Origin: Azospirillum sp. TSA2s
GTDB lineage: Bacteria > Pseudomonadota > Alphaproteobacteria > Azospirillales > Azospirillaceae
DNA: 64,000 bases
Direction of reading: 5' to 3'
Assembly: GCF_004923315.1 (NCBI RefSeq)
Contig: NZ_CP039647.1
Coordinates: 744,001 to 808,000, forward strand
Positions 2,080 through 29,433 of this stretch are shown piece by piece (position 1 is the stretch's first letter; each line of letters opens with the position of its first letter). The translations under genes and the position numbers were made by a program. Below the pieces are notes generated by a model, which was not told the DNA's origin, did no database searches, and was given only the letters and a program-made list of their open reading frames with translations.

Positions 2080-2496
2080 ATGAAGCGCTTTATCGCCCCC
2101 CTCTTGTTCGTGACCCTGCCGTTCGCCACGGCGCTCGCCGATACCCCCCAGTCGAAAAATGCCAAGGTGACCTTGGTCTACGAACACGCACTGCCCGACG
2201 TGCCTGGCAAGAGCGTCAAGGGCGTGCTGGTCGAATATGGTCCGGGCGGCTATTCGCCTGCCCATACCCATGCGAAGTCGGCGCTCATCTACGCCACCGT
2301 GCTGGAAGGGGCGATCCGCAGCAAGGTCAATGACGGCCCGACCAAAACCTATCGGGTGGGCGAGAACTTCACCGAACTGCCGGGCGACCATCATGGGGTC
2401 AGCGCCAACGCCAGCGACACCAAGCCGGCGAAGCTCCTTGCGGTCTTCGTGGTGGACACCGCCGACACGGAGCTGACCACGCTGGACAATAAGTGA
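2080..2496 (+). CDS. Small periplasmic cupin-domain protein
   Basis: A 138-residue protein with a clear signal peptide (MKRFIAPLLFVTLPFATALA, cleavage after about residue 20). It has one cupin beta-barrel, with the metal-type motif GGYSPAHTHAKSALIYATVLEG at residues 56-77 and the second cupin motif around LPGDHHGVSANAS. The histidines H62, H64 and H106-H107 could hold a metal. The start has AAGGAG upstream. Its position after the NmrA-type gene and before the Rrf2 gene suggests a small redox- or stress-response unit. The substrate is unknown. Confidence 0.8.
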   Translation: MKRFIAPLLFVTLPFATALADTPQSKNAKVTLVYEHALPDVPGKSVKGVLVEYGPGGYSPAHTHAKSALIYATVLEGAIRSKVNDGPTKTYRVGENFTELPGDHHGVSANASDTKPAKLLAVFVVDTADTELTTLDNK

Positions 2497-2533
2497 CGGG
2501 GAAGTTGCGGAACAGGGATGGCTTGCGCTTTTA

Positions 2534-2558
2534 AACGCGGATTATTAGTGTCCCTGTT
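2534..2558. promoter_or_regulatory. Operator copy 3, upstream of the Rrf2 gene
   Basis: AACGCGGAT, spacer TATTAGT, then GTCCCTGTT. It has the same 25-bp length and 9-7-9 spacing as the copies at 1079 and 1121. It ends 24 bp before the Rrf2 start codon, the position expected for an autoregulatory site. Confidence 0.7.
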
Positions 2559-2582
2559 CCCCATTTTCTATCGGAACCGGCC

Positions 2583-3113
2583 ATGGCACATCTCACCGTC
2601 AGCGTCGAGTACGGCATTCACTGCCTTCTCTGGCTGGTCTCATCGGGCAACCAGCCACTGAGCAGCCGTGACCTGGCCGAACTGCAGGGCATCTCGTCGT
2701 CCTTTCTGGCCAAGATTTTCCCGAAGCTCGAAAAGGCCGGACTCGTCATGGCCAGCGAAGGCGTGCGCGGCGGCTATCGGCTGGCCAAAGCGCCGGAGGA
2801 CATCACCTTTCTGGACATCGTCGATGCGATCGAAGGCGACAAGCCGCTTTTCGATTGCCAGGAAATCCGCGGTCGCTGCGCCGTGTTCGGGGAGCGACCG
2901 CCCTCCTGGGCGACATCCGGTGTCTGTGCGGTGCATGCGGTGATGCTGCGCGCGGAAAAGGCGATGCGGGCGGAATTGGCCAAGGAGACACTTGCCAGTG
3001 TCGCCAATACATTCAGCCTAAAGGCACCGGCGGAATTCTCCGACAAAATTGCACACTGGATGCAGGACCGGTTCAATGCCCGGACCTCGACACGCACGTC
3101 GCGATCCAAATGA
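2583..3113 (+). CDS. Rrf2-family transcriptional regulator
   Basis: A 176-residue regulator. The winged helix covers about residues 1-75: LTVSVEYGIHCLLWL, the recognition helix region ISSSFLAKIFPKLEKAGLV, and the wing GVRGGYRLAK. Rrf2 proteins such as IscR and NsrR sense iron-sulfur status, nitric oxide or redox state through three cysteines. Here the candidates are C92, C99 and C115, plus C14 in helix 1. Their spacing is wider than the C-x5-C-x5-C of IscR, so cluster binding is not certain and a thiol switch is possible. The protein probably binds the 25-bp palindromes at 2534, 1121 and 1079, giving autoregulation and control of the NmrA-type gene. Confidence 0.9.
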   Translation: MAHLTVSVEYGIHCLLWLVSSGNQPLSSRDLAELQGISSSFLAKIFPKLEKAGLVMASEGVRGGYRLAKAPEDITFLDIVDAIEGDKPLFDCQEIRGRCAVFGERPPSWATSGVCAVHAVMLRAEKAMRAELAKETLASVANTFSLKAPAEFSDKIAHWMQDRFNARTSTRTSRSK

Positions 3114-3506
3114 ATCGTCCGTCATCCCCAGGCGGGACGCAGAGCATCGGACATTGAGCTTGGATGCGGCGTCGGGACTGAGATAACGACCATAACATTC
3201 ATAGGATATGAATGATTTATATCGCCGGCCATCACGTTGCCGTGCGACCTGCTCACAAGCCTCATTGACGGCTGCAGCACTTCGCTCCATTCAACCGCGC
3301 ATTCTGGATATCCATCCAGCTCCCGACGCCAAGTGCGACAATCTGTCCGCTCTTAAAGATATATTTTTTGAGCATATTATATCCACAGCATCAAGCGGCC
3401 GGCGCCAACGGCGACACGCTCAATGCACCTGACACGTCACGCTGTGGACGCCGTCGACAACCGCCGACAGAGCGTACCGGCGCACTGGAGCCGAGGAGCT
3501 CAGATC
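3114..3506. promoter_or_regulatory. Leader of the alternative oxidase gene with two dyads
   Basis: This 393-bp stretch holds no convincing gene and is richer in A+T than its surroundings. Two dyads stand out. ATTCAT-5-ATGAAT is perfect at 3197-3213. GATATA (3358-3363) and TATATC (3378-3383) flank an AT-rich core with TTGAGC. Alternative oxidase genes in some bacteria are induced by nitric oxide through NsrR, so these are candidate regulator sites. Neither is a clear match to a motif I can name. Confidence 0.4.
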
Positions 3507-4169
3507 ATGAATACCTTCATCCTCACCACGCATCATACGCCTCGCAACGTCAGTGACCGCATTGCGCTGGGCTTCACCAAGGTGCTGCGCCTGCTGGCCG
3601 ACACCTTCTTCGCCAAGCGCTATGGACATCGCGCCATCGTCCTGGAAACGGTGGCGGCGGTTCCGGGCATGGTCGGCGCCACACTGCAGCATCTGCGCTG
3701 CCTGCGCCGCATGCAGCATGACCAGGGCTGGATTCACACCTTGCTCGACGAGGCCGAGAATGAACGCATGCACCTGATGACCTTCATCGAGGTGGCGAAG
3801 CCGAACTGGCTGGAACGCGTCCTGATCCTGCTGACCCAGGGGGCTTTCTACAACGCTTTCTTCCTGCTGTACCTGATCTCGCCGCAGACGGCCCACCGGG
3901 TGGTCGGCTATTTCGAAGAGGAAGCGGTCATCAGCTACACCGGCTACCTCGCTGAAATCGACGCCGGCCGACATGCGAACCCGCCGGCCCCGCGCCTTGC
4001 CATCGATTACTGGCAGCTTCCGGAAACCGCCACCCTGCGCGATGTCGTGCTCGCCGTCCGCAATGACGAGGCCAACCATCGCGACGTGAACCACGGCTTC
4101 GCCGATACGCTGGCCGGCCGGCCGGCCGCCGATGCGGATCACCGTGACGAATCGCGCAAGGCGGCTTGA
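3507..4169 (+). CDS. aox: Alternative oxidase (cyanide-insensitive quinol oxidase)
   Basis: A 220-residue di-iron quinol oxidase that would pass electrons from ubiquinol to oxygen without pumping protons, at the inner membrane face. All iron ligands expected for the family are present: E47 in the LET motif, E86 and H89 in NERMH, a glutamate of FEEEA at 137-139, and E188 and H191 in NDEANH. I chose the ATG at 3507 because GAGGAG lies upstream; an upstream frame from 3423 lacks a good ribosome site. The protein is at the short end of the family, as is usual for bacterial forms. Alternative oxidase is uncommon in bacteria, and its role here may be respiration under nitric oxide, cyanide or redox stress. 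The Rrf2 gene just upstream fits such a role. Confidence 0.93.
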
Positions 4170-4487
4170 TCGAAGGTGCCAAGGTGGCCGTTTTCGCCCG
4201 CAATGCGAAAGTCCGGCAGAACCGGCCGCCAAAGCTCAGGTTCCGATGCTGGCCGTCGCCGGTGAAGAACGTATTTGGGCGGTGCCGCTTTTCGTCTGAT
4301 GACGTCATCTCTCAAGAATCGGGAGCCTCGGGAATCCCGGCCCCGTGCACCATCTCCAGCCAAACGCTGCCGAAGGCATTGCTCCAAAAGAGCACGCACG
4401 AGGATCTTGAGAAACCTCCGCCATGACCGTATCGTTCTTGTGCCGCAGATAGACTGCGGCGTTCTTTCAGCAAGGAGCTTGCTGAGC
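4170..4487. promoter_or_regulatory. Leader of the NAD salvage operon with a small hairpin
   Basis: This 318-bp gap contains no convincing gene. Close to the nadM start, GCCGCAG (4442-4448) and CTGCGGC (4454-4460) form a perfect 7-bp stem with a 5-nt loop, 28 bp before the start codon. It could be an operator for a NAD regulator or an RNA hairpin. It does not match the NrtR or NadR motifs as I know them. Confidence 0.35.
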
Positions 4488-5645
4488 ATGGTTTCTACCA
4501 ACAGCACCGGACGCGAGTCCGGCACCCTGTCGTTGCCGAGGAAGACCGCGGTTCCCAATGCCCAAGGCGCCCTGGCCACCAGAGCGGATAGCGCCTTGGC
4601 ATACGATTTTCTAGTTTTCGTCGGCCGCTTCCGCCCGTTCCATATCGGCCATCTCACCGTCATGCAGCGGGCTTTGTCGCTGGGGCGCCATCTGATCGTG
4701 CTGGTCGGATCGTCGCGTCAGGCGCGCAGCCACCGGAATCCCTTCCGCTTCGAAGAGGTGCGCTCCTGCATAGCAGACGCCTTCACACCGGAAGAGTGCG
4801 AGCGCATCACGGTGCTTCCCCTCATCGACCGCTACAACGACCTGGAATGGATCCGCGATGTCCAGGCCGCGGTGCATGGTGTCGTCGTGCAGCATCACCG
4901 GCCTGCCGATGGCTCCACCCCAAGGGTTGGCCTGATCGGTCATTCGAAGGACCACAGCAGCTACTATCTGCGCATGTTCCCGCAATGGGGCGCCGTGGAA
5001 TGCATGAACTGCCGGGGGATTTCGGCCACGCCCATCCGCGACGCCTATTTCGCCGACGCGGCGGCGGCGCTGGAGGCATGGAAAGAGGCATTGCCCGCGA
5101 ATGTCACCGCCTTCATGGCGGAGTTCGCACGCACCGACGAGTACAAGCGGCTGGCCGAGGAAAGCGCCTATATCGCCAAATATAAGGCAGGCTGGGCCAA
5201 CGCACCTTACCCTCCGACCTTTCTGACCGCCGATGCCGTGGTGGTCCTGTCCGGTCACGTTCTGCTGGTCGAACGCCGGGGCCTGCCGGGACGCGGTTTG
5301 CTGGCACTGCCCGGAGGCTTCGTCGGCCAGCATGAGCGGATCAAGGACGCCATGATCCGCGAGTTGCGAGAGGAGACGAAGCTCAAAATTCCAGCGGGCT
5401 TTCTGGAGGGCGGCATCCGCGCCAGCCAGATCTTCGATCACCCCTACCGCTCGACGCGCGGGCGCACGGTGACTCAAGCCTTCCTCATCCAGCTCAAGCC
5501 CACCGACGAAGGCTTTCCCAAGGTGCGTGGCGGTGACGACGCCAAATCGGCCCGCTGGATGCCGATCGCGGAAATCGATCCCGAACAGATGTTCGAGGAT
5601 CACTTCCATATCATCCAAACACTGATCGCGTTGTCCAACAACTGA
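4488..5645 (+). CDS. nadM: Bifunctional NMN adenylyltransferase / Nudix hydrolase
   Basis: A 385-residue two-domain enzyme. The first half (about residues 40-210) is a nucleotidyltransferase with the HIGH signature in FRPFHIGHL at about residue 52 and the ISATPIRD motif. It joins ATP to NMN (or NaMN) to make dinucleotide. The second half is a Nudix hydrolase whose box starts at about residue 279 and runs GFVGQHERIKDAMIRELREE; the usual glycine near its end is replaced by lysine. This matches the NadM-Nudix fusions of cyanobacteria and Francisella. The ATG at 4488 has AAGGAG upstream, and the frame extends further upstream without support. It is the first gene of the NAD operon. Confidence 0.93.
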   Translation: MVSTNSTGRESGTLSLPRKTAVPNAQGALATRADSALAYDFLVFVGRFRPFHIGHLTVMQRALSLGRHLIVLVGSSRQARSHRNPFRFEEVRSCIADAFTPEECERITVLPLIDRYNDLEWIRDVQAAVHGVVVQHHRPADGSTPRVGLIGHSKDHSSYYLRMFPQWGAVECMNCRGISATPIRDAYFADAAAALEAWKEALPANVTAFMAEFARTDEYKRLAEESAYIAKYKAGWANAPYPPTFLTADAVVVLSGHVLLVERRGLPGRGLLALPGGFVGQHERIKDAMIRELREETKLKIPAGFLEGGIRASQIFDHPYRSTRGRTVTQAFLIQLKPTDEGFPKVRGGDDAKSARWMPIAEIDPEQMFEDHFHIIQTLIALSNN

Positions 5646-20153: not shown

Positions 20154-20254
20154 TCGGCAATTTCCGTTCCCCTACAGGCAATTTTCTTTGAGGGATCGGC
20201 CTCCGCCGGTCGTCTTACCAAACACGGGGCAACAGGAGCTTGCGGCAAGACGCG

Positions 20255-21301
20255 ATGGACCATCGGGATGAACGGCAGAAGGACCCGGCAGACGGGGAGC
20301 CGGCGGACGGCGGACCGGATGGGGACCGGCTGTTCTCGGAAGCCAATGCGTGGTTCTTTCGCCTTCAGTCCGACGACCTCACCCCGGCGGAGCGTACCGC
20401 ATTCGCCGAGTGGCTGGCCCGCAGCCCGGCTCATTCCCGCGCCTGGAGCGAACTGCGGACCCTCCTGCACGACCTGAAGGAACCTGCCCGTGCCGCCTAT
20501 GCCGGGTCCCGCATCGCGGCCCCCCGACGCCCTGTGGCAGCCCAGGTGCGGCGCTTCGCTGCGGCGCTGGCGGTCCTGCTGGTGGCCGGCGGGCTCGGCG
20601 TCTGGCGCGGACCGGCGCTCTACCAGAATGCCGTCGCCGATCAGGTGACCTCGACCGGGCAGAGGCGGACATTGGCCCTGCCGGACGGCTCCACCGCCGA
20701 GATGAACGGCGACACCGCACTGGTTCTCGATTTCCGGGATGGTGAGAGGCGAGTCCGGATTCTGCGCGGAGAGGCATGGTTCCACGTCACCCGCGACCCC
20801 GACCATCCCTTCGTCGTCGATGGCGGAGCGGGTGCCGCCCGCGTGCTGGGCACCCAATTCAGTGTCCGGCGTGAGGACGACCGCACGACAGTGACGGTCG
20901 GCGAGGGGCTGGTGGAGGTCGCCGCCCATCGAAACGCCGACAGCCACGCCCCCTGGCCCGACAGCATCCGCCTGCACCCCGGCGAAAGCGCGGAGGCCGA
21001 CCCCCACGGCCTGACCGGGCCACGGGCGGTGGATCCCGCCGTTGCATTCGCATGGCGCCAGGGTCAGATCGTCTTCCGTCAGCAGTCACTCGCCTCGGTC
21101 ATCACAGCGCTGAACCAGCAATGGCCGGGCCGCGTGGTCCTGCTGAACGACGAGGTGGCGGAGCGCGTGGTTTCCGGCGTCTTCGCGCTCGACCGGCCGG
21201 ATGCCGTGTTCGATGCGCTGGAGCGCGGCCTCGGCGTGCGCGCCATCCGCATCACCCCCTACCTGACCCTGCTTGAGGGGAGCGCGACAGGTGTCAGGTA
21301 A
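20255..21301 (+). CDS. fecR: FecR-family anti-sigma/signal transducer with transposon-altered C-terminus
   Basis: A 348-residue inner-membrane protein that relays receptor occupancy to the FecI sigma factor. The cytoplasmic DUF4880 part is at about 20-65 (EANAWFFRLQSDDLTPAERTAF). One membrane helix follows (AAALAVLLVAGGLGVW), then the FecR domain (TLALPDGSTAEMNGDTAL to TVGEGLVEVAA) and a secretin/STN-like end. I use the ATG at 20255; a TTG at 20240 is too close to the ribosome site. The last eight residues, EGSATGVR, are encoded by the left terminal repeat of the inserted element. The original ending, rebuilt across the junctions, is YLTLLR followed by TGA. Function is probably kept because only one native codon was displaced. 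Confidence 0.9.
   Translation: MDHRDERQKDPADGEPADGGPDGDRLFSEANAWFFRLQSDDLTPAERTAFAEWLARSPAHSRAWSELRTLLHDLKEPARAAYAGSRIAAPRRPVAAQVRRFAAALAVLLVAGGLGVWRGPALYQNAVADQVTSTGQRRTLALPDGSTAEMNGDTALVLDFRDGERRVRILRGEAWFHVTRDPDHPFVVDGGAGAARVLGTQFSVRREDDRTTVTVGEGLVEVAAHRNADSHAPWPDSIRLHPGESAEADPHGLTGPRAVDPAVAFAWRQGQIVFRQQSLASVITALNQQWPGRVVLLNDEVAERVVSGVFALDRPDAVFDALERGLGVRAIRITPYLTLLEGSATGVR
21270..21274. repeat. Left copy of 5-bp target-site duplication TGCTT
   Basis: TGCTT directly precedes the left 51-bp terminal repeat. An identical TGCTT directly follows the right terminal repeat at 26780-26784. A five-base duplication is the mark of a transposition event; Tn3-type elements make duplications of this length. 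Confidence 0.85.
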
Positions 21302-21325
21302 ACAACGCCGCCATTATCAACCAAA
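21275..21325 (+). repeat. Left terminal inverted repeat (51 bp)
   Basis: It begins GAGGGGAGCGCGACAGG and ends ATCAACCAAA. Its reverse complement matches 26729-26779 with four substitutions and no gaps. Its first 27 bases are read as the last codons and stop of fecR. Confidence 0.88.
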
Positions 21326-21556
21326 GGGTTCTGTTGCAAAGTCGGCGTTTGGGTGGAAGTCATTATAGTTTCAACAACTTCAGGCAGCAGCCCCGAACAG
21401 GGTGGCGATGAAGGAGACCTGGCTGCCCATGTCTTTGGCGGGAATGGCGGCCCTTGAACGGGTCCTTCATGGATCGCATCACCCTGCCACCCCAACAGCC
21501 AAAAGGGGCTGGGTTCTATCCGATCCGGGCGGCGCCGAAAAAGCTGCGACAGAGCC
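21326..21556 (-). pseudogene. Internally deleted IS6-family insertion sequence relic
   Basis: The left end reads GGGTTCTGTTGCAAAGTCGG, close to the IS6/IS26/IS257-type terminal repeat (GGTTCTGTTGCAAA). The right end, CTGCGACAGAGCC at 21544-21556, is the matching opposite end. Only about 230 bp separate them, against about 800 bp in a full IS6 element. On the minus strand the residue string MKDPFKGRH, a start typical of one IS6 transposase group, is followed after a shift of frame by SFIATLFGAAA-stop, a plausible transposase end. It abuts the terminal repeat of the large element with no gap. No 8-bp duplication is visible around it. Confidence 0.55.
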
Positions 21557-21576
21557 GTTGACGGTGCCGTCGGGAA

Positions 21577-24500
21577 TCAGGAACCCGTCCGCGTCGAGGG
21601 CTGGTCTGCCAAGGCGCATCTGATGGCGGCCAGCAATGGGTCCGGACTGAGTGGCTTATGCAGCAGCAGGAAGCCGCTGGCACTCGCCTCCCGGATGCGT
21701 TCGGGCGAGGTATCGCCGGTCAGGAGGATTCCAGGCAGTCGGACGGCGAAGTGCCGCGCAAGCCGCCTGATCACCTCCGATCCGTTTTCCGTGCCCTTGA
21801 GCCGGAAATCGGCGATGACTAGGTCTGGCGCTTGGTTCGCCAAGCGTTTCACGGCGGTATCGCCGTCCGGTGCCGCCACCACCTCATACCCCTGTTCCTG
21901 AAGAAAGGCGGTGACCCCGTCGAGGACCGCCGGGTCGTCGTCGACCACCGCGACCCGCTCGCCGTTGCCTCCGTTGGGTATCGGCGTCTCCTCGTCCTTC
22001 GGAACGGGATCGTTCTGACTGGCTAACGGAACAAGGATCTCGAACATCGATCCCCGTCCCGGCGTCGACCGAACCCGGATCGGGTGCTGAAGCAGCGTGG
22101 CGAGGCGTTCCACGATGGCAAGCCCCAACCCCAGCCCCTGCCGGCGGTCGCGCTCCGGATTGTCGACCTGATGAAACTCCTCGAAGATCGAGGCCAGCTG
22201 GTTCGGCGGAATGCCGCGCCCGGTGTCCCAAACCTGGATGCGCAGGTTCGTGCCGGCACGGCGGCACCCCACCAGGATGCCGCCCTTGTCGGTGTATTTG
22301 ATCGCGTTGGCGATGAAATTCCGCAGAATGCGCTCCAGCAGCTTGGGATCGCTCCGCACCGCCAGGTTGGTCGGAATGCAGCGCAACTCCAGGCCGGCTG
22401 CTTCGGCCAGTGGCGAAAATTCGGCGCACAGTGAAGCGATCATCGTCTGGATCGAGCAGGACCGCAGCATGACCTGGATGATGCCGGCGTCCAGCCGCGA
22501 CACGTCCAGGATATCGTCAAGCATGACGGTCATGGCGCCCAGCGCGTTGCCCATGCTGGCCAGCAGCTTGGCTGCCGCCTCGCCCTGAGGCTGCATGGCC
22601 ACCAGATGATGGAACATGATCAGGGCCTGCACCGGCTGCCGCAGATCATGGCTGGCAGCGGCGAGAAAGCGGGTCTTGCTGGCGCTCGCCTGTTCGGCCG
22701 CGGCCTTGGCGGCGGCGAGGGCCTGGCGGACGCGCACCTGCTCGGTGACGTCCTCCATCGCCAACAGGATCAGCCTGCCCGCCTGATTCAGGCGGCGGGC
22801 GTTCAGCAACAGGGTGCGTCGGGTGAGGTTCCGGCCATCGGCGTCTTGGCCGCCGGCCTCCTGGTTATCGGTGTCCCGACCGACGGTCAGTTCCAACGCC
22901 TCGATGACCGTGCCGTTGGGGATGATCCGTTCCAGCGCCCGGCGCAATCCGGGATCGGCCAGCAGACCGCCGGCCATTTCGGCCAGCCGGGCGCCCAGCA
23001 CGTCCTCCGGCGTGGTGGCGAAGATGTGATGGAAGGCCGCGCTGGCGCCGACCACCTGCAGCGTCTCGTCCAGCACAAGCAGAGGTTCGCGCACCGTGTC
23101 GACGATGGCCTGGGCGAAATCGCGCTCCGCCCGCGCTGCGCGCAGCACCCCGGCCCGCTCGATGACCAGCCCCAGCACGCTGGCGATGGCTTGGACGAAT
23201 TCCAGGTCGGCGTCTCCGAACCGTCCCGCCGTTTGGCTGAGCACCGCGAGAACGGATGGTCCCCGCGTCCCGTCGCCGAAGGGGATGCCAAGGCCGCTGA
23301 CGGCCGGACCGCCGGGCAGCGCCAGAGGGGAGCGGACGCGCTGATCGGTGGCGAAATCCTCGACGATCAGCGGCTGCCGGGACCGGAACACCCGTCCGAC
23401 CAGCGTTGCCATGTCGGTGGAGATCCTGACCGCGGGGTCTTGCGGAACGGAAAATCCGACGCTACCGAGGAGGACAAGGTCGTCGGCATCCCCGGTGCGG
23501 CGGCCGGACGGATCGTCGCCGGGGCCGAGGATGGCGACGCCGTCCACGCCCAGCCCTTCGGCGATGAGGTGGGCCGCTTCCGCCAGCGTCTCCGGCCCGT
23601 CGGCTCCGACGGGATCCTTGCGTCCGAGATCGGCGATCAGCTTGTACTGGCGGGCACGCAGAGCCATGGCCAGGCTGGTTCGTTTCAGCGGCGTCACGTC
23701 GCTGAAGGTAATGACGACGCCCTCCACCTGCGCGTGCTGGGTGCGGTAGGGCTGGATACGGCGCAGGTACGTGGTGTCGCCGTCCATCGACACTTCCCGT
23801 TCCGACGGCGTCATGGACGACAGCACGGAGCGGATGTCGGTCAGCAGGTAGGGATCGGAGAAATGGCGGGCGATGTCGGTGATCGGGCGTCCGGTATCCT
23901 GCGGCAGCAGGGCGAACATCCGGGTCGCCGGCGGAGTGAAACGCTTGATCCGCAGATCCGATGACAGGAAGACCGTGGCGATGTCGGTGCTGCTCAGCAG
24001 ATTGCCGAGGTCGTTGGTGGTCGCCTCCAGCTCGTCGACCTTTTCATGGAGCTGGGTGTTCAGCGTGCTGAGTTCCTCGTTGAGGGATTGCAGCTCTTCT
24101 TTCGATGTCTCCAGTTCTTCGGTGGTCGACTGGTACTCCTCGCCGATCGACAGGATCTCCTCGTTGGCGACCCGCAATGCCTCGCTGGTCGCGCTGAGTT
24201 CCGCGATGGTTTCGTTCAACTCCTCGCGGGTCATGCGCAGCTCGCTTTCGAGCTGTTCGACGCTGTCCATGGCGGCCGGCAGCACCGGGGCCTCGCCGGG
24301 CGGGATGCTTGGTGCCGCGTCGCCGGCGGTGAAGGTCACCAGCAGCAGTTCGTTGCCGGCCCGAGGGAAGCGCACCGGGATCACCAGGATGGTCACCGGC
24401 ACCATAACCCCTTGGCGCTTGTGTCTGATCCCCGAGATCTGGACCCGTCCGTGCGAAGCGAGCGCCTGGGCGATGGCGCGGCGCAGTTGCAGGCGCAACT

Positions 24501-26232
24501 CCCCGCGCGTCATCGCCGTCAGGTCCCAGGGCGGCTCCCCCGTCGGCAGGTCGAGAAACTCGCCGGTCGGACCGAACAGGTATTGGACCCGATGCTGACC
24601 GTCGATCAAAACAGCCGCAGGCGCATATTCCAGCAATAGCGCCTGTCGGATCAGGTCGGCCGGGCTGTTGCCGCGCAAGGGGGTGGGCGGCGCCGGCAGC
24701 GTGATCGCGGATCGCCCGCCCGTGGACGGAACCGACATCGCGCTGCCGCGGGTGGTGCCGACCTTCCGGTAAAGGCGCCATTTCTTGGATAATGGCCGGA
24801 ACAGGTCGGAGCGCGCGTCGATGGTCTCCGCGGTGCCGAGGAGCAGGCCGCCATTCTCGACCAGAGCAAAATGGAACAGTGCGAAGATGGCCTTCTGCAC
24901 ATCCGGCTCGATGTAGATCAGCATGTTGCGGCAGCTGATGAGATCGAGCTTGGAAAACGGAGGATCGCTGAGCAGGTCGTGCTGAGCGAAGGATACCGCG
25001 TCGCGCAACGGCTTGGCCACCTTGTAGCCGCCTTCGGCCTTGGTGAAGAAGCGGTCGAGCCGTTCGGCGGACACGTCCACGGTGATGGTTTCCGGATACA
25101 GGCCGGTGCGGGCGATGGTCAGCGCCCGGCTGTCCACGTCGGTGGCAAACACCCGGAAGTCGGGGGACGATCCATTCTGCGCGCAGGCCTCCAGCAGCAG
25201 GATGGCGATGGAGTAAGCCTCCTCCCCGGTGGCGCAGGCCGGGACCCACACGCGGATCGGCTTGCCCGCCGGCCGGCTCCGCACCAGCGGGGCGATGAAA
25301 TCGTCAGCCAGGGCCTCGAAAGCCGGACCATCGCGGAAAAAGCGGGTCACGCTGATCAGAATGTCGCGGGACAGCAGTTCGATCTCGGCGGGGTGCGTGC
25401 CCAGAAAGGCCCGGTATTCCGACATGTCGCCGATGTGGTGAATTCCCATTCGCCGTTCGATGCGGCGGGAAAGCGACCGCGGTTTGTAGGCCCGGTGGTC
25501 TCGCTTGGTCTGTACGTTCAGCAGGTCCAGGATGCCATCCAATGCACCGTCCGGCGCCTCTACACTCTGTAACGCCACGGGGCCGAGATAGGGCTGGTGA
25601 ACGAAGTCGACGATGACGCCCGGCATGCGCTCCGGCGCCAGGATGTAGTCGGCCAAACCGGTGGCGATGGCACTGTTCGGCATGCCGTCGAACTCGGCGG
25701 TCGTCGGGTCCTGGACGACCACCAATCCGCCGCACTCTTTGATCGAGCGGAGGCCGTTGGTGCCGTCCGCCCCGGTCCCGGACAGCACGACGCAGATCGC
25801 CTTCTCATGCTGGTCGGTCGCCAGCGTACGGAAGAAGATGTCGATGGGCAGGCTGGCATCGGCCGATATCTTCGGTTCGCGAATACGCAGTTGGCCGGCC
25901 TCCATGGTCGGCAACAGGCCCGCCGGAGCGATGTATATGTGATCGGCCTCCAGCAGAATGCCGTCATGCGCCGTTTGGACCGACAGCGGCGTTGCTTTTG
26001 CCAGCAGATCGGACAGCAGCCTCTCGTTGTTCGGAATCCGGTGCTGGATAACAACGAAGGCGAGGCGGCTGGCCGTCGGCACGGCGCCGAGCAGCGCGGT
26101 GATGGCCTTCAGGCCGCCGGCCGAGGCGCCGATTCCGACGATTGCCAAAGGACCGGTCTGGGTGTCCCGCCGTTCGGTCCGAGCCATGGGCTCCTGGCCA
26201 TATCGGTCCGAGCCTTCATCCGTTGAAATCAT
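21577..26232 (-). CDS. Giant CheB-CheR-PAS-GAF-PAS hybrid histidine kinase with receiver domain
   Basis: A 1551-residue signalling protein. A CheB methylesterase domain comes first, with triad S37 (GASAGG), H64 (VIQH) and D156 (GTGADG). A CheR methyltransferase domain follows at about 235-500 (VWVPACATGEEAYSIA). A long Glu-rich coiled coil lies at about 645-735, then PAS, GAF and a second PAS. The kinase has H1195 in ASHDLRQP and an ATPase with NAIKY, DTGRGIP and GLGLGLAI. A receiver domain ends the protein with D1475 in VIADFRLKG. CheB/CheR/PAS/kinase proteins of this kind are known in alphaproteobacteria, with roles in stress, development or cell aggregation. I chose the ATG at 26232, which has GGAGG upstream. 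It is the only full gene of the mobile element. There is no receptor-methylation partner nearby. Confidence 0.92.
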   Translation of the reverse strand: MISTDEGSDRYGQEPMARTERRDTQTGPLAIVGIGASAGGLKAITALLGAVPTASRLAFVVIQHRIPNNERLLSDLLAKATPLSVQTAHDGILLEADHIYIAPAGLLPTMEAGQLRIREPKISADASLPIDIFFRTLATDQHEKAICVVLSGTGADGTNGLRSIKECGGLVVVQDPTTAEFDGMPNSAIATGLADYILAPERMPGVIVDFVHQPYLGPVALQSVEAPDGALDGILDLLNVQTKRDHRAYKPRSLSRRIERRMGIHHIGDMSEYRAFLGTHPAEIELLSRDILISVTRFFRDGPAFEALADDFIAPLVRSRPAGKPIRVWVPACATGEEAYSIAILLLEACAQNGSSPDFRVFATDVDSRALTIARTGLYPETITVDVSAERLDRFFTKAEGGYKVAKPLRDAVSFAQHDLLSDPPFSKLDLISCRNMLIYIEPDVQKAIFALFHFALVENGGLLLGTAETIDARSDLFRPLSKKWRLYRKVGTTRGSAMSVPSTGGRSAITLPAPPTPLRGNSPADLIRQALLLEYAPAAVLIDGQHRVQYLFGPTGEFLDLPTGEPPWDLTAMTRGELRLQLRRAIAQALASHGRVQISGIRHKRQGVMVPVTILVIPVRFPRAGNELLLVTFTAGDAAPSIPPGEAPVLPAAMDSVEQLESELRMTREELNETIAELSATSEALRVANEEILSIGEEYQSTTEELETSKEELQSLNEELSTLNTQLHEKVDELEATTNDLGNLLSSTDIATVFLSSDLRIKRFTPPATRMFALLPQDTGRPITDIARHFSDPYLLTDIRSVLSSMTPSEREVSMDGDTTYLRRIQPYRTQHAQVEGVVITFSDVTPLKRTSLAMALRARQYKLIADLGRKDPVGADGPETLAEAAHLIAEGLGVDGVAILGPGDDPSGRRTGDADDLVLLGSVGFSVPQDPAVRISTDMATLVGRVFRSRQPLIVEDFATDQRVRSPLALPGGPAVSGLGIPFGDGTRGPSVLAVLSQTAGRFGDADLEFVQAIASVLGLVIERAGVLRAARAERDFAQAIVDTVREPLLVLDETLQVVGASAAFHHIFATTPEDVLGARLAEMAGGLLADPGLRRALERIIPNGTVIEALELTVGRDTDNQEAGGQDADGRNLTRRTLLLNARRLNQAGRLILLAMEDVTEQVRVRQALAAAKAAAEQASASKTRFLAAASHDLRQPVQALIMFHHLVAMQPQGEAAAKLLASMGNALGAMTVMLDDILDVSRLDAGIIQVMLRSCSIQTMIASLCAEFSPLAEAAGLELRCIPTNLAVRSDPKLLERILRNFIANAIKYTDKGGILVGCRRAGTNLRIQVWDTGRGIPPNQLASIFEEFHQVDNPERDRRQGLGLGLAIVERLATLLQHPIRVRSTPGRGSMFEILVPLASQNDPVPKDEETPIPNGGNGERVAVVDDDPAVLDGVTAFLQEQGYEVVAAPDGDTAVKRLANQAPDLVIADFRLKGTENGSEVIRRLARHFAVRLPGILLTGDTSPERIREASASGFLLLHKPLSPDPLLAAIRCALADQPSTRTGS

Positions 26233-26728
26233 GACCGGCCTCCAGCCCATACCTCGATCCCGACCCACGATGGTCTTAGCCGATACCACCATACCGCCAT
26301 ACCGAACCTTTTTGGTGGGATGGCAGCGAGTTGGGCGGCATTAGGCCGGTATGCGGACGACGACCAATTCATATGTTCAGAAGTCTACAGCATGCCGTCG
26401 TGTGTTTGGAAAATTATAAGCATTAGCGGTATAGTTTCGTATGCACGACGACGTTAAAGCGTCCGGTATCCCTGAATTCTTGACCATGAAATCGCGGCAG
26501 TCATTCGATTGTATTCAAGATGCCATCTTCGACTCCGTGTGATATTCCACTGGAATGTATGGTTCAGCCCATGGGAAAATCGCTTGCGCGGATCCTGATC
26601 GCCCAGAAACCCTCTGGTCCCATCCTCCCCCGGCCCTCCAGCTTCCGGCCGTCTTTCGTTACGCTGTCGGGCGCCAATTCCGGCGGACCAAGGACGGCAG
26701 GATCAGCATCCGCTCCGCCATAGCTGTC
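26233..26728. promoter_or_regulatory. A+T-richer leader of the kinase gene inside the mobile element
   Basis: About 500 bp without a convincing gene. The segment 26360-26530 is clearly lower in GC than the rest of the window (for example TTGGAAAATTATAAGCATTAGCGGTATAG). It may hold the promoter of the kinase gene (minus strand). The part at 26560-26728 has no assignable content and could contain remains of deleted transposon genes or a resolution site, though I cannot identify one. Confidence 0.35.
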
Positions 26729-26779
26729 TTTGGTTGATGATGGCGGCGTTGTTTACGTGACACCTATCGCGCTCTCCTC
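26729..26779 (-). repeat. Right terminal inverted repeat (51 bp)
   Basis: It begins TTTGGTTGATGATGG and ends TATCGCGCTCTCCTC, and is the inverted partner of 21275-21325. It is followed directly by TGCTT and then CGCTGA, the displaced end of fecR. Confidence 0.88.
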
Positions 26780-26784
26780 TGCTT
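26780..26784. repeat. Right copy of 5-bp target-site duplication TGCTT
   Basis: It is identical to 21270-21274 and directly adjoins the right terminal repeat. The next six bases, CGCTGA, are the original last codon and stop of fecR. Confidence 0.85.
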
Positions 26785-26798
26785 CGCTGAAAAAATCC

Positions 26799-26820
26799 GG
26801 GAGGTCTAAAAAAACTTCCC
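26799..26820 (+). terminator. Hairpin in the native fecR-fecA gap
   Basis: GGGAGGT (26799-26805) can pair with ACTTCCC (26814-26820), including one G-U pair, around an A-rich 8-nt loop. Such hairpins between fecR and fecA type genes can stop transcription or stabilise the receptor mRNA. In the unbroken locus it would lie just after the fecR stop. Confidence 0.4.
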
Positions 26821-26919
26821 AGGGATCTCCGCATCCCCATCGTCATCACCGGGAAAGAAGAGAATGAGACGCAGTCGCAGAACGTGGCGCGGTCTCTCAC
26901 CGGATGACAGAGGCGAGCG

Positions 26920-29433
26920 ATGGCATTGGCGAAGATTGGGTCGAGGATTGGGGCGAAGACCGGAATGACCGGGGTGATGATCGGGCGCCGGGGCAGCGTC
27001 GCTGGTGAGCGGTTCGGCCGCGTGTTCCTGGGGCGTTTGCTGGCGACGACGGTGCTGATCGCGCCGGGCCTCCTGCTCTCCCACATCCCCGCAGCGACGG
27101 CGCAAACGAATCCGGCCGGCGCGGTGACCTTCGCCATTGCGCCGCAATCGGTGGACGGGGCGCTCGCCGCCTTTTCCGCCGCGACACGCATCCAGGTGCT
27201 GAGCCCCGGCGCGGTGACGCAGGGCGTCAACTCCCCCGGCGTCAGCGGTTCGATGTCGGCGCGCGAGGGGCTGAACCGCCTGCTGTCCGGCACCGGGCTG
27301 GTCGCCCGCTTCCTCAACACCGAAACCGTGACGGTCGAGCGCGTGGCCGCCGTTGGCGCCATCCAACTCGACCCGGTCCAGATCGAAGGACGCGGGGCCC
27401 CGAGCAGTCCCGGCGCCCTGCCCCCGGCCTATGCCGGCGGTCAGGTGGCGCGCGGCGGGCGCATCGGCGCGCTGGGCAACCAGGACGCGATGGATGTTCC
27501 GTTCTCCGTCACCGGCTACACCGCCGAAACCATCCGCAACCAGCAGGCGGATACCGTCGCCGATGTGCTGGCCAACGATCCGGCGGTGCGCAGCGGCCTC
27601 GGCTATGGCAACTTCGCAGAGAGCTTCGTCATCCGCGGCTTCCAATTGATGGGCGAGGATCTGTCGATCGACGGACTCTACGGAACCGCACCGCGCCAGA
27701 TCGTCGCCACCAACATGTTCGAACGGGTGGAGGTGCTGAAGGGCGCCAACGCCTTTCTGAACGGCGCGGCCCCCAGCGGGTCCGGCATCGGCGGCGGAGT
27801 GAATCTCGTGCCCAAGCGGGCGGAGGACGAACCGCTGACCCGCCTGACCGCCAGCTATGCCATGGACAGCCGCTTCGGCCTGTCCGCCGATGTCGGCCGC
27901 CGGTTCGGCGATGCCAACCAGTTCGGCGTGCGCGTCAACGCCGCCGTCCGCGGCGGCGAGACCGCCATCGACGACGAGGAGCGGACGCTGAAGCTCGGCT
28001 CCCTGGCGCTCGACTATCGCGGCGAGCGCACCCGCGTGACGCTCGACGTCGGGACCCAGACCCAACGGGTGGAGCAGGGCCGCCCGGTGGTCTATTTCGG
28101 CAACTTCGTCCCGGCGGTGCCGTCGGCGTCGCAGAACTATGCGCAGCCCTGGTCCTATTCGCAGATGCGCGACACCTTCGGCCAGATCCGTGCCGAATAC
28201 GACATCCTGCCGAACCTGACCGCTTACGGCGCCTTCGGCCTGCGCAGCATGCGCGAGGACGGCGACTATGCCTCCCCCACCGTCACGCGGGTCGACGGCA
28301 CCGGCACCGTCAGGCGCCTGACCGTCCCGCGCGAGGATTTCACCAGCACCGGCCAGGCCGGCATCCGGGCCGACCTGCACACCGGCCCAATCAGGCACCA
28401 GCTGAATGCCGGCGCCTCCGCGCTGCGGACGACCAACAACAACGGCTTTGAATTCGGCGCGACCTCCGCCATCAACCTCTACCGCATGGTCGGGCTGCCG
28501 CGCCCGGCGACGACATCGTCCAGCGGCATGGTCGGCGATCCGCCGAAGGTCAGCGAGTCCGTGCTGCGCAGCGTCTATGCGTCGGACACGCTGTCGATCC
28601 TCGACGACCGGGTGATGGTCACCGCCGGCCTGCGCCAGCAGAACATCCAGGTCCGCGGCTTCAACCGTGCCACCGGCGCCCGCACCTCCGATTACGACCA
28701 GTCGGCGCTGACGCCGGTGGTCGGGCTGGTGGTGAAGCCGACCGAGGAACTGTCGCTCTACGCCAACCGGATCGAGGGGCTGGCGCAGGGTCCGACCGCC
28801 CCGTCCACGGCGGCCAATGCCGGAGAGATCTTCGAGCCCTACCGCTCCGTCCAGTACGAGGTCGGCGGCAAGCTGGACTTCGGCAGCTTCGGCGGCTCAC
28901 TGTCGCTGTTCCAGACCACCCAGCCCAGCGGCGTCACCGACGCGTTCACCCGCATCTACAGCGTGTCCGGCGAACAGCGCAACCGCGGCATCGAGCTGAT
29001 GCTGTATGGCGAACCGGTGCAGGGCGTCCGGCTGCTGGGCGGCGCCACCTTCATCGATCCGGAGATGACCGATACCGGAAGCGCCGCGACCGAGGGCAAG
29101 GACGCCGTCGGCGTTCCGCGCCACCAGTTCAATGCCAACGTCGAATGGGACCTGCCCTTCCTTCCGGCCTCCTTCCCCACCGTGACACTGACCGGGCGCG
29201 TGATCCACACCGGGTCGCAGTATCTCAACACCGCCAACACGCTGAAGATCCCTAGCTGGACCCGCTTCGACGTCGGCGCGCGGATGGTCACCGACATCCG
29301 GAACCGTCCGGTCACCGTCCGGGCGGCGGTGGAGAACGTCACCGACAAGGCCTATTGGGCGTCGGCCTATGGCGGTTACCTGAGCCAGGGCGCTCCGCTG
29401 ACCGCCAAGCTGTCGCTGTCGGTCGATTTCTGA
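26920..29433 (+). CDS. TonB-dependent siderophore receptor with N-terminal signalling (STN) domain
   Basis: An 837-residue outer-membrane receptor for a ferric siderophore. A long signal region (about 1-65) ends at the AATAQT site. A STN/secretin domain follows (FAIAPQSVDGALAAFSAATRI to TGLVARFL), which touches FecR in the periplasm. The plug domain starts near residue 190 (MDVPFSVTGYT, then SFVIRGFQL). The rest is the 22-strand barrel, ending in the terminal phenylalanine of SVDF. The closest type is the FhuE/FpvA/FoxA-like siderophore group. It is the natural third gene after fecI-fecR but is now 5.6 kb away because of the inserted element. Confidence 0.93.
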   Translation: MALAKIGSRIGAKTGMTGVMIGRRGSVAGERFGRVFLGRLLATTVLIAPGLLLSHIPAATAQTNPAGAVTFAIAPQSVDGALAAFSAATRIQVLSPGAVTQGVNSPGVSGSMSAREGLNRLLSGTGLVARFLNTETVTVERVAAVGAIQLDPVQIEGRGAPSSPGALPPAYAGGQVARGGRIGALGNQDAMDVPFSVTGYTAETIRNQQADTVADVLANDPAVRSGLGYGNFAESFVIRGFQLMGEDLSIDGLYGTAPRQIVATNMFERVEVLKGANAFLNGAAPSGSGIGGGVNLVPKRAEDEPLTRLTASYAMDSRFGLSADVGRRFGDANQFGVRVNAAVRGGETAIDDEERTLKLGSLALDYRGERTRVTLDVGTQTQRVEQGRPVVYFGNFVPAVPSASQNYAQPWSYSQMRDTFGQIRAEYDILPNLTAYGAFGLRSMREDGDYASPTVTRVDGTGTVRRLTVPREDFTSTGQAGIRADLHTGPIRHQLNAGASALRTTNNNGFEFGATSAINLYRMVGLPRPATTSSSGMVGDPPKVSESVLRSVYASDTLSILDDRVMVTAGLRQQNIQVRGFNRATGARTSDYDQSALTPVVGLVVKPTEELSLYANRIEGLAQGPTAPSTAANAGEIFEPYRSVQYEVGGKLDFGSFGGSLSLFQTTQPSGVTDAFTRIYSVSGEQRNRGIELMLYGEPVQGVRLLGGATFIDPEMTDTGSAATEGKDAVGVPRHQFNANVEWDLPFLPASFPTVTLTGRVIHTGSQYLNTANTLKIPSWTRFDVGARMVTDIRNRPVTVRAAVENVTDKAYWASAYGGYLSQGAPLTAKLSLSVDF

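Follow-up and report, generated by a model that had tools for sequence, protein, structure and literature searches.

The stretch of DNA analysed here, referred to as the window, comprises 64,000 nucleotides of the Azospirillum sp. TSA2s genome (G000; 8.1 Mb, 10 contigs) and corresponds to G000:C6:744001-808000. A gene for a FecR family protein (20240..21301, plus strand; the A. oryzae record names the FecR family), the last residues of which are changed by an insertion, is separated there from an intact gene for a fecA-like, TonB-dependent siderophore receptor (26920..29433, plus strand), the conserved upstream sequence of which starts immediately after the inserted element. The element is bounded by inverted repeats at 21275-21326 and 26728-26779 that are identical at 48 of 52 positions, or 47 of 51 over the first 51, as had been reported in a sequence-only reading of this DNA. 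The repeats are far above background, since the runner-up inverted pair within 20500-27500 extends over only 32 nt at 75% identity. The outer side of both repeats is abutted by the pentanucleotide TGCTT (21270..21274 and 26780..26784), likewise as stated in that reading; a random 5-bp direct repeat has a probability of approximately 1/1024.

Read from the left, the element consists of the outer 33 bp of a Tn3-family terminal repeat (21275..21307, plus strand; 31/33 identical, by-eye count, to the right end of the intact transposon at locus L050 described below), a 19-bp stub that represents the end of an IS1595-family IS (21308..21326, plus strand), an internally deleted IS6-family copy of ∼230 bp (21327..21556), a gene for a hybrid histidine kinase (21577..26292, minus strand), the upstream region of that gene, with a GC content of 50% (26293..26606), a 140-bp remnant from the terminus of the IS1595-family IS to which the left stub also belongs (26607..26746, minus strand), and the right outer 33 bp of the Tn3-family repeat (26747..26779, minus strand). 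The kinase gene is the single large ORF with recognisable domains, the remainder being IS remnants. Inspection of ORFs and a domain search of the element revealed neither a transposase nor a resolvase gene, nor an IS1595-type transposase gene, and no stretch similar to tnpA or the resolvase gene of L050 is left, in keeping with the earlier statement that the element lacks a transposase gene.

The IS6-family assignment is based on matches of query positions 1-125 and 119-234 of 21327-21556 to the two ends of an 849-bp stretch (G010:C3:447859-448707), the middle of which is missing here (ends compared by eye), and on plasmid matches annotated as IS6 family transposases, three in Azospirillum and one in Indioceanicola. 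This copy ends ∼20 bp from the kinase stop codon and so separates the left end from the kinase. An IS6-family composite would have two copies flanking the cargo; here there is one, internally deleted, on the left, and the right flank gave matches of IS1595 type only. The 457-bp right inner stretch is matched in 5 of 45 genus genomes, in three by the kinase start only, and its remainder occurs only in this genome and in A. oryzae. The same distribution holds for the kinase upstream region when the 45 genus genomes and the plasmid collection are considered together. A promoter scan of 26293..26606 returned a sigma-70-like match on the plus strand only, and none on the kinase strand.

The insertion site in related genomes

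A search with the end of fecA gave a match in 31 of the 45 genus genomes and a close match, defined as at least 79% identity over at least 1,361 of 1,611 bp, in 22. Two of these 22 carry the element, namely the present genome and A. oryzae COC8 (G024), which has it at the same site with 95.7% identity over 13.6 kb including the flanks; the other 20 are without it at this position. In all 19 relatives that were aligned the junction is empty, with the point of insertion present as a single copy and with fecR running into the fecA upstream sequence, and the twentieth (G005), which was looked at apart, is uninterrupted at the element's insertion point. G005:C110 (L132, ∼2430-3302) has a different insert of ∼870 bp in the fecR-fecA gap, ∼11 bp beyond that point. 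FecR ends in ITPYLTLLR in the three relatives that were translated, and in the window it ends in ITPYLTLLEGSATGVR, reading into the repeat, so that the protein is altered only at its last residues. The sequence-only reading had noted that excision restores a natural FecR ending, which the sequence confirms, and had placed the insertion at a defined point, which is supported; it had also named occupancy of the same place in all related genomes, with no empty site, as the observation that would overturn it, and this check did not overturn it.

With TGCTT on both sides of the element and an empty junction in the 19 aligned relatives, the 5-bp target duplication characteristic of Tn3-family mobile units is present. 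The fecR-fecA gap received a Tn3-ended unit, with a 5-bp duplication of the target, in an ancestor from which this strain and A. oryzae had not yet diverged. Two observations are counted against the interpretation preferred below: one copy of the duplication reads CGCTT in A. oryzae, where it is the right copy that differs, and only one insertion site of the kinase cassette is known, which does not amount to repeated mobility. No kinase with the same ends was found at a second site in the 45 genus genomes or the plasmid collection. Four records in the plasmid collection cover at least 80% of the element, but only that of A. oryzae KACC 14407 reaches its ends, the B510, TSH58 and A. brasilense records covering the kinase part only. 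Since the KACC 14407 record is 100% identical to COC8 over 15,505 bp, it was not counted as a second witness.

The hybrid histidine kinase

The kinase ORF encodes 1571 residues from its first ATG. The giant CheB-CheR-kinase gene reported previously is present as a single large gene; the length of 1551 residues given for it would correspond to a later start. Pfam domains are arranged in the order CheB, CheR_N, CheR, PAS, GAF, PAS, HisKA, HATPase and receiver, and inspection by eye showed the motifs of CheB (serine, histidine and aspartate) and of CheR, together with the histidine of HisKA and the aspartate of the receiver. The kinase part is closest to a NahK/ErcS-type model, with a score below the cut-off (359.5 of 400 bits), and no membrane or chemoreceptor domain was detected in the protein. 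The domain content suggests a soluble sensor that may feed a phosphorelay and that is headed by enzyme domains of the adaptation type.

Comparison with the A. oryzae copy revealed 69 synonymous and 36 non-synonymous changes (dS 0.058, dN 0.010, dN/dS 0.18), and the neighbouring 250 bp of non-coding sequence are 92% identical. On this pattern the kinase is intact and under purifying selection, and the gene has been maintained since the insertion, which implies that the host retains this cargo for signalling.

Relatives of the kinase at 81-83% protein identity are present in five genomes (G018, G033, G021, G031 and G030), with a common surrounding locus in G033, G021 and G018, the same spacing in G031, and the pieces on separate contigs in G030. 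DNA homology between these relatives and the window is limited to the coding part (21623 to 26156-26188), and as a result the boundary of capture is unreadable. In A. oryzae the CheB-CheR paralogue that neighbours the kinase at the relatives' locus is present and the kinase is absent there, which fits relocation of the kinase and also plain loss. At G038:C43 (L128, ∼4090-5476) a transposon from the Tn3 lineage in question breaks up a further kinase relative; this was considered as a second cargo case and rejected, since the kinase there lies outside the transposon end.

Composite nature of the terminal repeats

At other places the outer 33 bp of the repeats are found on their own, in many cases followed by CTAAG. 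The terminal repeat is a composite, in which a 33-bp Tn3-type end has been joined to the terminus of an IS1595-family IS, and the view of the 51-bp repeat as a single transposon end has to be abandoned. The suggestion of a divergent Tn3-like donor was correct as to Tn3-type origin, but the lineage is neither divergent nor unknown, being that of the ISAli20-like Tn3 transposons, intact members of which reside in Azospirillum. Full copies with tnpA, the search for which had been recommended, do exist: an intact relative that shares the outer 33 bp lies on a plasmid of A. ramasamyi (G027:C7; L050 6008-11564), spans 5,557 bp with TTCAA on both sides, and encodes a 985-residue Tn3 transposase, a resolvase, an enoyl-CoA hydratase and a TetR regulator. 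Its TnpA scores 1064.7 bits against NF033527 (cut-off 500) and is 74.6% identical to an A. lipoferum TnpA annotated as ISAli20 family, the transposon of which has related ends.

When repeats of ∼38 bp were compared, the outer 33 bp were common to the window, L050 and a 17.7-kb element of the same genome (see below), and the next 5 bp, CTAAG in the latter two, were replaced in the window by the end of an IS1595-family IS. The lack of CTAAG, with which the 38-bp Tn3 end would finish on its inner side, bears on the competence of this copy for TnpA and is counted against the preferred interpretation. The end pattern, with up to 3 mismatches allowed, was matched in 21 of 45 genomes, and a reversed-pattern control in 0. 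Equal 5-bp flanks were seen in five inverted pairs, these being the window, C10 (TATTT), G027 (TTCAA), the outer pair of G006 (TTACA) and G025:C6 (CTCCA). Also counted against the preferred interpretation are the unequal flanks of eight distinct short inverted pairs (L020, L023, L025, L026, L033, L034, L039 and L042) and of the ISAli20 locus itself (L267; AATTT/TTCCA). Two 262-bp units examined for duplications, G044:C8 and G026:C1, have unequal flanks (AGGAT/AGCAT and GACCT/GATAC). At G006:C29 (L055 6688-8439), two short Tn3-ended units surround ∼1.25 kb, with TTACA shared by the outermost ends, in an arrangement that resembles a TIME-COMP.

The inner part of the repeats recurs with the outer part in the same genome. 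A second pair of fused ends at C10:258830-260078, with the same 50-odd bases and its own TATTT duplication, surrounds an IS1595-family transposase gene that is broken into two ORFs, which score 74.8 and 55.4 bits and both miss the family model's 75-bit cut-off. With only the inner part of the IS as query, and hence without bias towards its ends, a search of 82 family genomes at E ≤ 1e-100 gave 15 places, distributed over 12 of the genomes, which reduce to 14 loci since two have identical flanks. At nine of these 14 loci the IS is situated at a Tn3-type end, either 33-34 bp inside it or, in G036, against its inner side, and the ends concerned are of two kinds (GAGG...ACAACG or GGGGTSAC...TATACG). 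Two further loci seem by eye to be of this type (G073 and G075), with G069 being ambiguous. Loci with the IS at Tn3-type ends comprise C10 and others in G036, G007, G025, G012, G008 and G022 (L009, L199, L201, L215, L129, L204, L203 and L020). To our knowledge, homing of an IS 33-34 bp inside Tn3-family repeats is familiar only from IS110-type elements.

Plain 8-bp duplications at other sequences, AGTTGACT and TAGGTCAA, flank the IS at two of the 14 loci, and in G036 the IS is bordered on each side by AACAACGC at two contig ends, provided that these belong together. In C10, G025, G007:C21 and G022, where Tn3-type ends lie on both flanks of the IS, and in G007:C37, the adjoining 8 bp are inverted rather than direct copies (by eye), which argues against simple targeting and indicates later products as opposed to fresh insertions. 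Partners for five single fused ends (G025, G024:C35:32338, G036:C2, G012 and G003) were not found over 15-38 kb. A plasmid of A. brasilense 2020WEIHUA_K (L302 2619-6173) has a fused end of the Tn3/IS1595 type at a distance of ∼1.8 kb from the gene for a response regulator and of ∼2.2 kb from one annotated as "ATPase domain-containing protein"; a gene for a histidine kinase follows beyond these.

Transposases and other loads of the Tn3 lineage

A model of the Tn3 catalytic domain matched six pieces in the present genome, equating to three split tnpA genes, all of which are interrupted; a fourth tnpA fragment (C2:94988-96280) is N-terminal, 31% identical and without the catalytic domain. Two of the split genes encode products 98% identical to the L050 TnpA, the third being 37% and 52% identical in its two parts. 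All three are broken at residues 752-753 by a 3,412-bp stretch, 100% identical between copies and with two tyrosine recombinase genes, that looks like a site-specific element homing to tnpA. Its copies are located at L053 2649-6060 (G000:C6), at L059 7185-10596 (G000:C10) and across the ends of contig C2 (L054/L012). Uninterrupted close TnpAs are encoded in G027 and G002 (90%), with 75% identical ones in G027 and G025, and A. oryzae COC8 has a single TnpA match at E ≤ 1e-50, with 31% identity. Since the tnpA genes are interrupted here and A. oryzae has only the 31% identical TnpA, the kinase cassette looks stranded in this genome unless a helper enters.

The 17.7-kb element of the same genome (C6:107385-125129; L053 1886-19630) has ends of the same type and carries genes for a KaiC-type ATPase, a hybrid kinase, a GAF kinase, a LysR regulator and an MFS transporter; its flanks, GTGAA and GAGAA, agree at 4 of 5 positions, which is counted against the preferred interpretation. 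Copies of the KaiC/hybrid-kinase pair occur in G022 with 98-99% identity and in G038 with 95% identity, the latter beside a piece of the lineage's tnpA. The stretches fetched from G038 and G022 gave no Tn3-type end, and that from G022 no tnpA, and the pair is also encountered at 80-87% identity in many genomes, including this one, outside such elements where looked at. These data support, but do not prove, the notion that the Tn3 lineage moves signalling genes. The wider proposition, that ISAli20-like Tn3 transposons are a working vehicle spreading hybrid kinases in Azospirillum, with the CheB-CheR cassette and the KaiC/hybrid-kinase pair as two loads of one lineage and the fused Tn3/IS1595 end as a new functional type of end, is rather improbable on present evidence.

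Origin of the element

The element is probably a non-autonomous member of the Tn3 family, of the mobile-insertion-cassette kind, that was helped in trans and inserted once before the split between this strain and A. oryzae. It is not an autonomous Tn3 transposon, which would have TnpA and a resolvase inside, as it holds the kinase and IS remnants only; nor does it resemble an IS1595-family IS or composite, for which an 8-bp outer duplication and an IS transposase would be expected and where the outer duplication observed is 5 bp. Transposon ends around a passenger, the lack of a transposase and the signs of insertion are those of a mobile insertion cassette, the passenger of which may or may not have been aboard at insertion. 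Mechanistically, an ISAli20-like transposon would have provided TnpA in trans, which would have joined ends and target in the replicative manner of Tn3 elements, and the product would have been resolved by TnpR, also in trans, or by recombination. At some time an IS1595-family IS, of a type that seems often to land 33 bp inside Tn3-type ends, may have entered the ends, IS6-family activity may have joined the 3' end of the kinase gene to the left IS stub, and the IS copies would later have eroded. Because neither entry of an IS into an end nor entry of cargo into the middle changes the duplication, the latter dates the outer ends and not the cargo. The earlier conception of a mobile cassette moving a large signalling protein is thus sound with respect to the insertion of a Tn3-ended unit, whereas the presence of the kinase on board at landing is unproven.

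Alternative histories differ chiefly in when the kinase came aboard. It is possible, although on balance doubtful, that a small fused-end unit, consisting of an IS1595-family IS within Tn3-type ends like the 1.25-kb unit of C10, landed at the site, with IS6-family activity bringing in the kinase later. Kinase-free units fused at both ends do exist elsewhere (C10:258830-260078 and G022:C5:5681-6377), and the space that separates the left stub from the 3' end of the kinase gene is taken up by the IS6-family copy. However, no kinase-free unit occupies the fecR-fecA site in any of the 22 genomes with a close fecA match, the kinase is flanked neither by a second IS6-family copy nor by an 8-bp repeat (by eye), and both ends seem to have the L-type IS end facing outwards, judged from one base with the left scored undecided, which would be unexpected from a single IS unit. 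An alternative to be entertained only tentatively has a complete Tn3 transposon landing with the kinase as ordinary cargo, followed in place by IS1595-family insertions in both ends and by deletions that removed tnpA and tnpR. The intact relative and the 17.7-kb element do bear cargo between tnpA and the resolvase end, signalling cargo occurs on the same Tn3 lineage, and the IS in G036 lies within a Tn3-type end and has AACAACGC on each of its sides, if the two contig ends belong together; this course of events, though, requires two hits in the ends and two deletions, and nothing resembling the tnpA or resolvase gene of L050 remains inside.

An origin as a TIME-COMP, in which two separate fused-end units flanked the kinase, moved with it as a composite and later eroded to their outer parts, is unlikely. 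TIME-COMP elements with 5-bp duplications are among those described (PMC4133298), and both ends here seem to bear the same kind of stub, pointing outwards; however, a TIME-COMP has a complete TIME at each end, and neither flank of the present element is complete, the left retaining 52 bp of a fused unit and the right 173 bp, with the inner ends absent. There is practically no chance that transposition was not involved and that the repeats are fortuitous or a normal fecR-fecA spacer, given their length and identity and the 5-bp duplication; nothing in favour of this view was encountered, and the empty junctions in relatives refute it. The preferred reading remains that of a cassette of the mobile-insertion kind, assisted in trans.

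Significance and relation to known systems

The element places a hybrid kinase, kept under selection, inside transposon ends for which a recognisable helper lineage exists in the same genus. A survey of two-component systems in Azospirillum describes the expansion of hybrid kinases as having occurred mainly by horizontal transfer (PMC4618731); the main text of that article has no word beginning "transpos" and no "insertion sequence", "mobile genetic" or "genomic island". If the vehicle proposition considered above were true, it would supply the physical means by which hybrid kinases were acquired horizontally in the genus, as phylogenies had already suggested. A Tn3-type end with an IS end as its inner part, in addition, makes the end requirements of TnpA directly testable.

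Non-autonomous Tn3 elements with passenger genes are a described class that includes TIME-COMPs and mobile insertion cassettes (MICs) (PMC4133298; PMC13367494). The sequence-only reading considered a mobile cassette with such cargo to be undescribed, which does not apply to the class but does apply to the type of cargo among the literature matches listed. Neither a kinase on a non-autonomous Tn3 element nor insertion of an IS1595-family IS into Tn3 ends is described in the titles and abstract openings of those matches, which are mostly without subscription papers. The class of element is therefore known, and the cargo and the fused ends are new variants of it.

With the TIMEs and TIME-COMPs (PMC4133298; PMC13367494), the element shares Tn3-type ends without a transposase, 5-bp duplications and passengers moved in trans. 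TIMEs are described there as being of ∼250 bp and TIME-COMPs as having a TIME at each end, whereas the ends in the window are fused to IS1595-family stubs and enclose a single signalling gene of 4.7 kb. The ISAli20-type Tn3 transposons of A. lipoferum 4B and, in the related form, A. ramasamyi resemble the element in the outer 33 bp, in 5-bp duplications (TTCAA in the A. ramasamyi copy) and in belonging to the same genus, but they encode TnpA and a resolvase and their end continues as CTAAG, whereas the window element lacks both genes and its end continues as that of an IS1595-family IS. In MICs, such as those of the Tn3-like TnXax1 group of Xanthomonas, transposon ends likewise surround passenger genes without a transposase, although that group belongs to another branch of the Tn3 family and carries other cargo. 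The IS elements IS4321 and IS5075, which are of the IS110/IS1111 type, insert into Tn21-type ends and so provide a parallel for an IS homing to Tn3-family terminal repeats; the IS in the window differs in that it belongs to the IS1595 family and is flanked by 8-bp duplications at two loci elsewhere.
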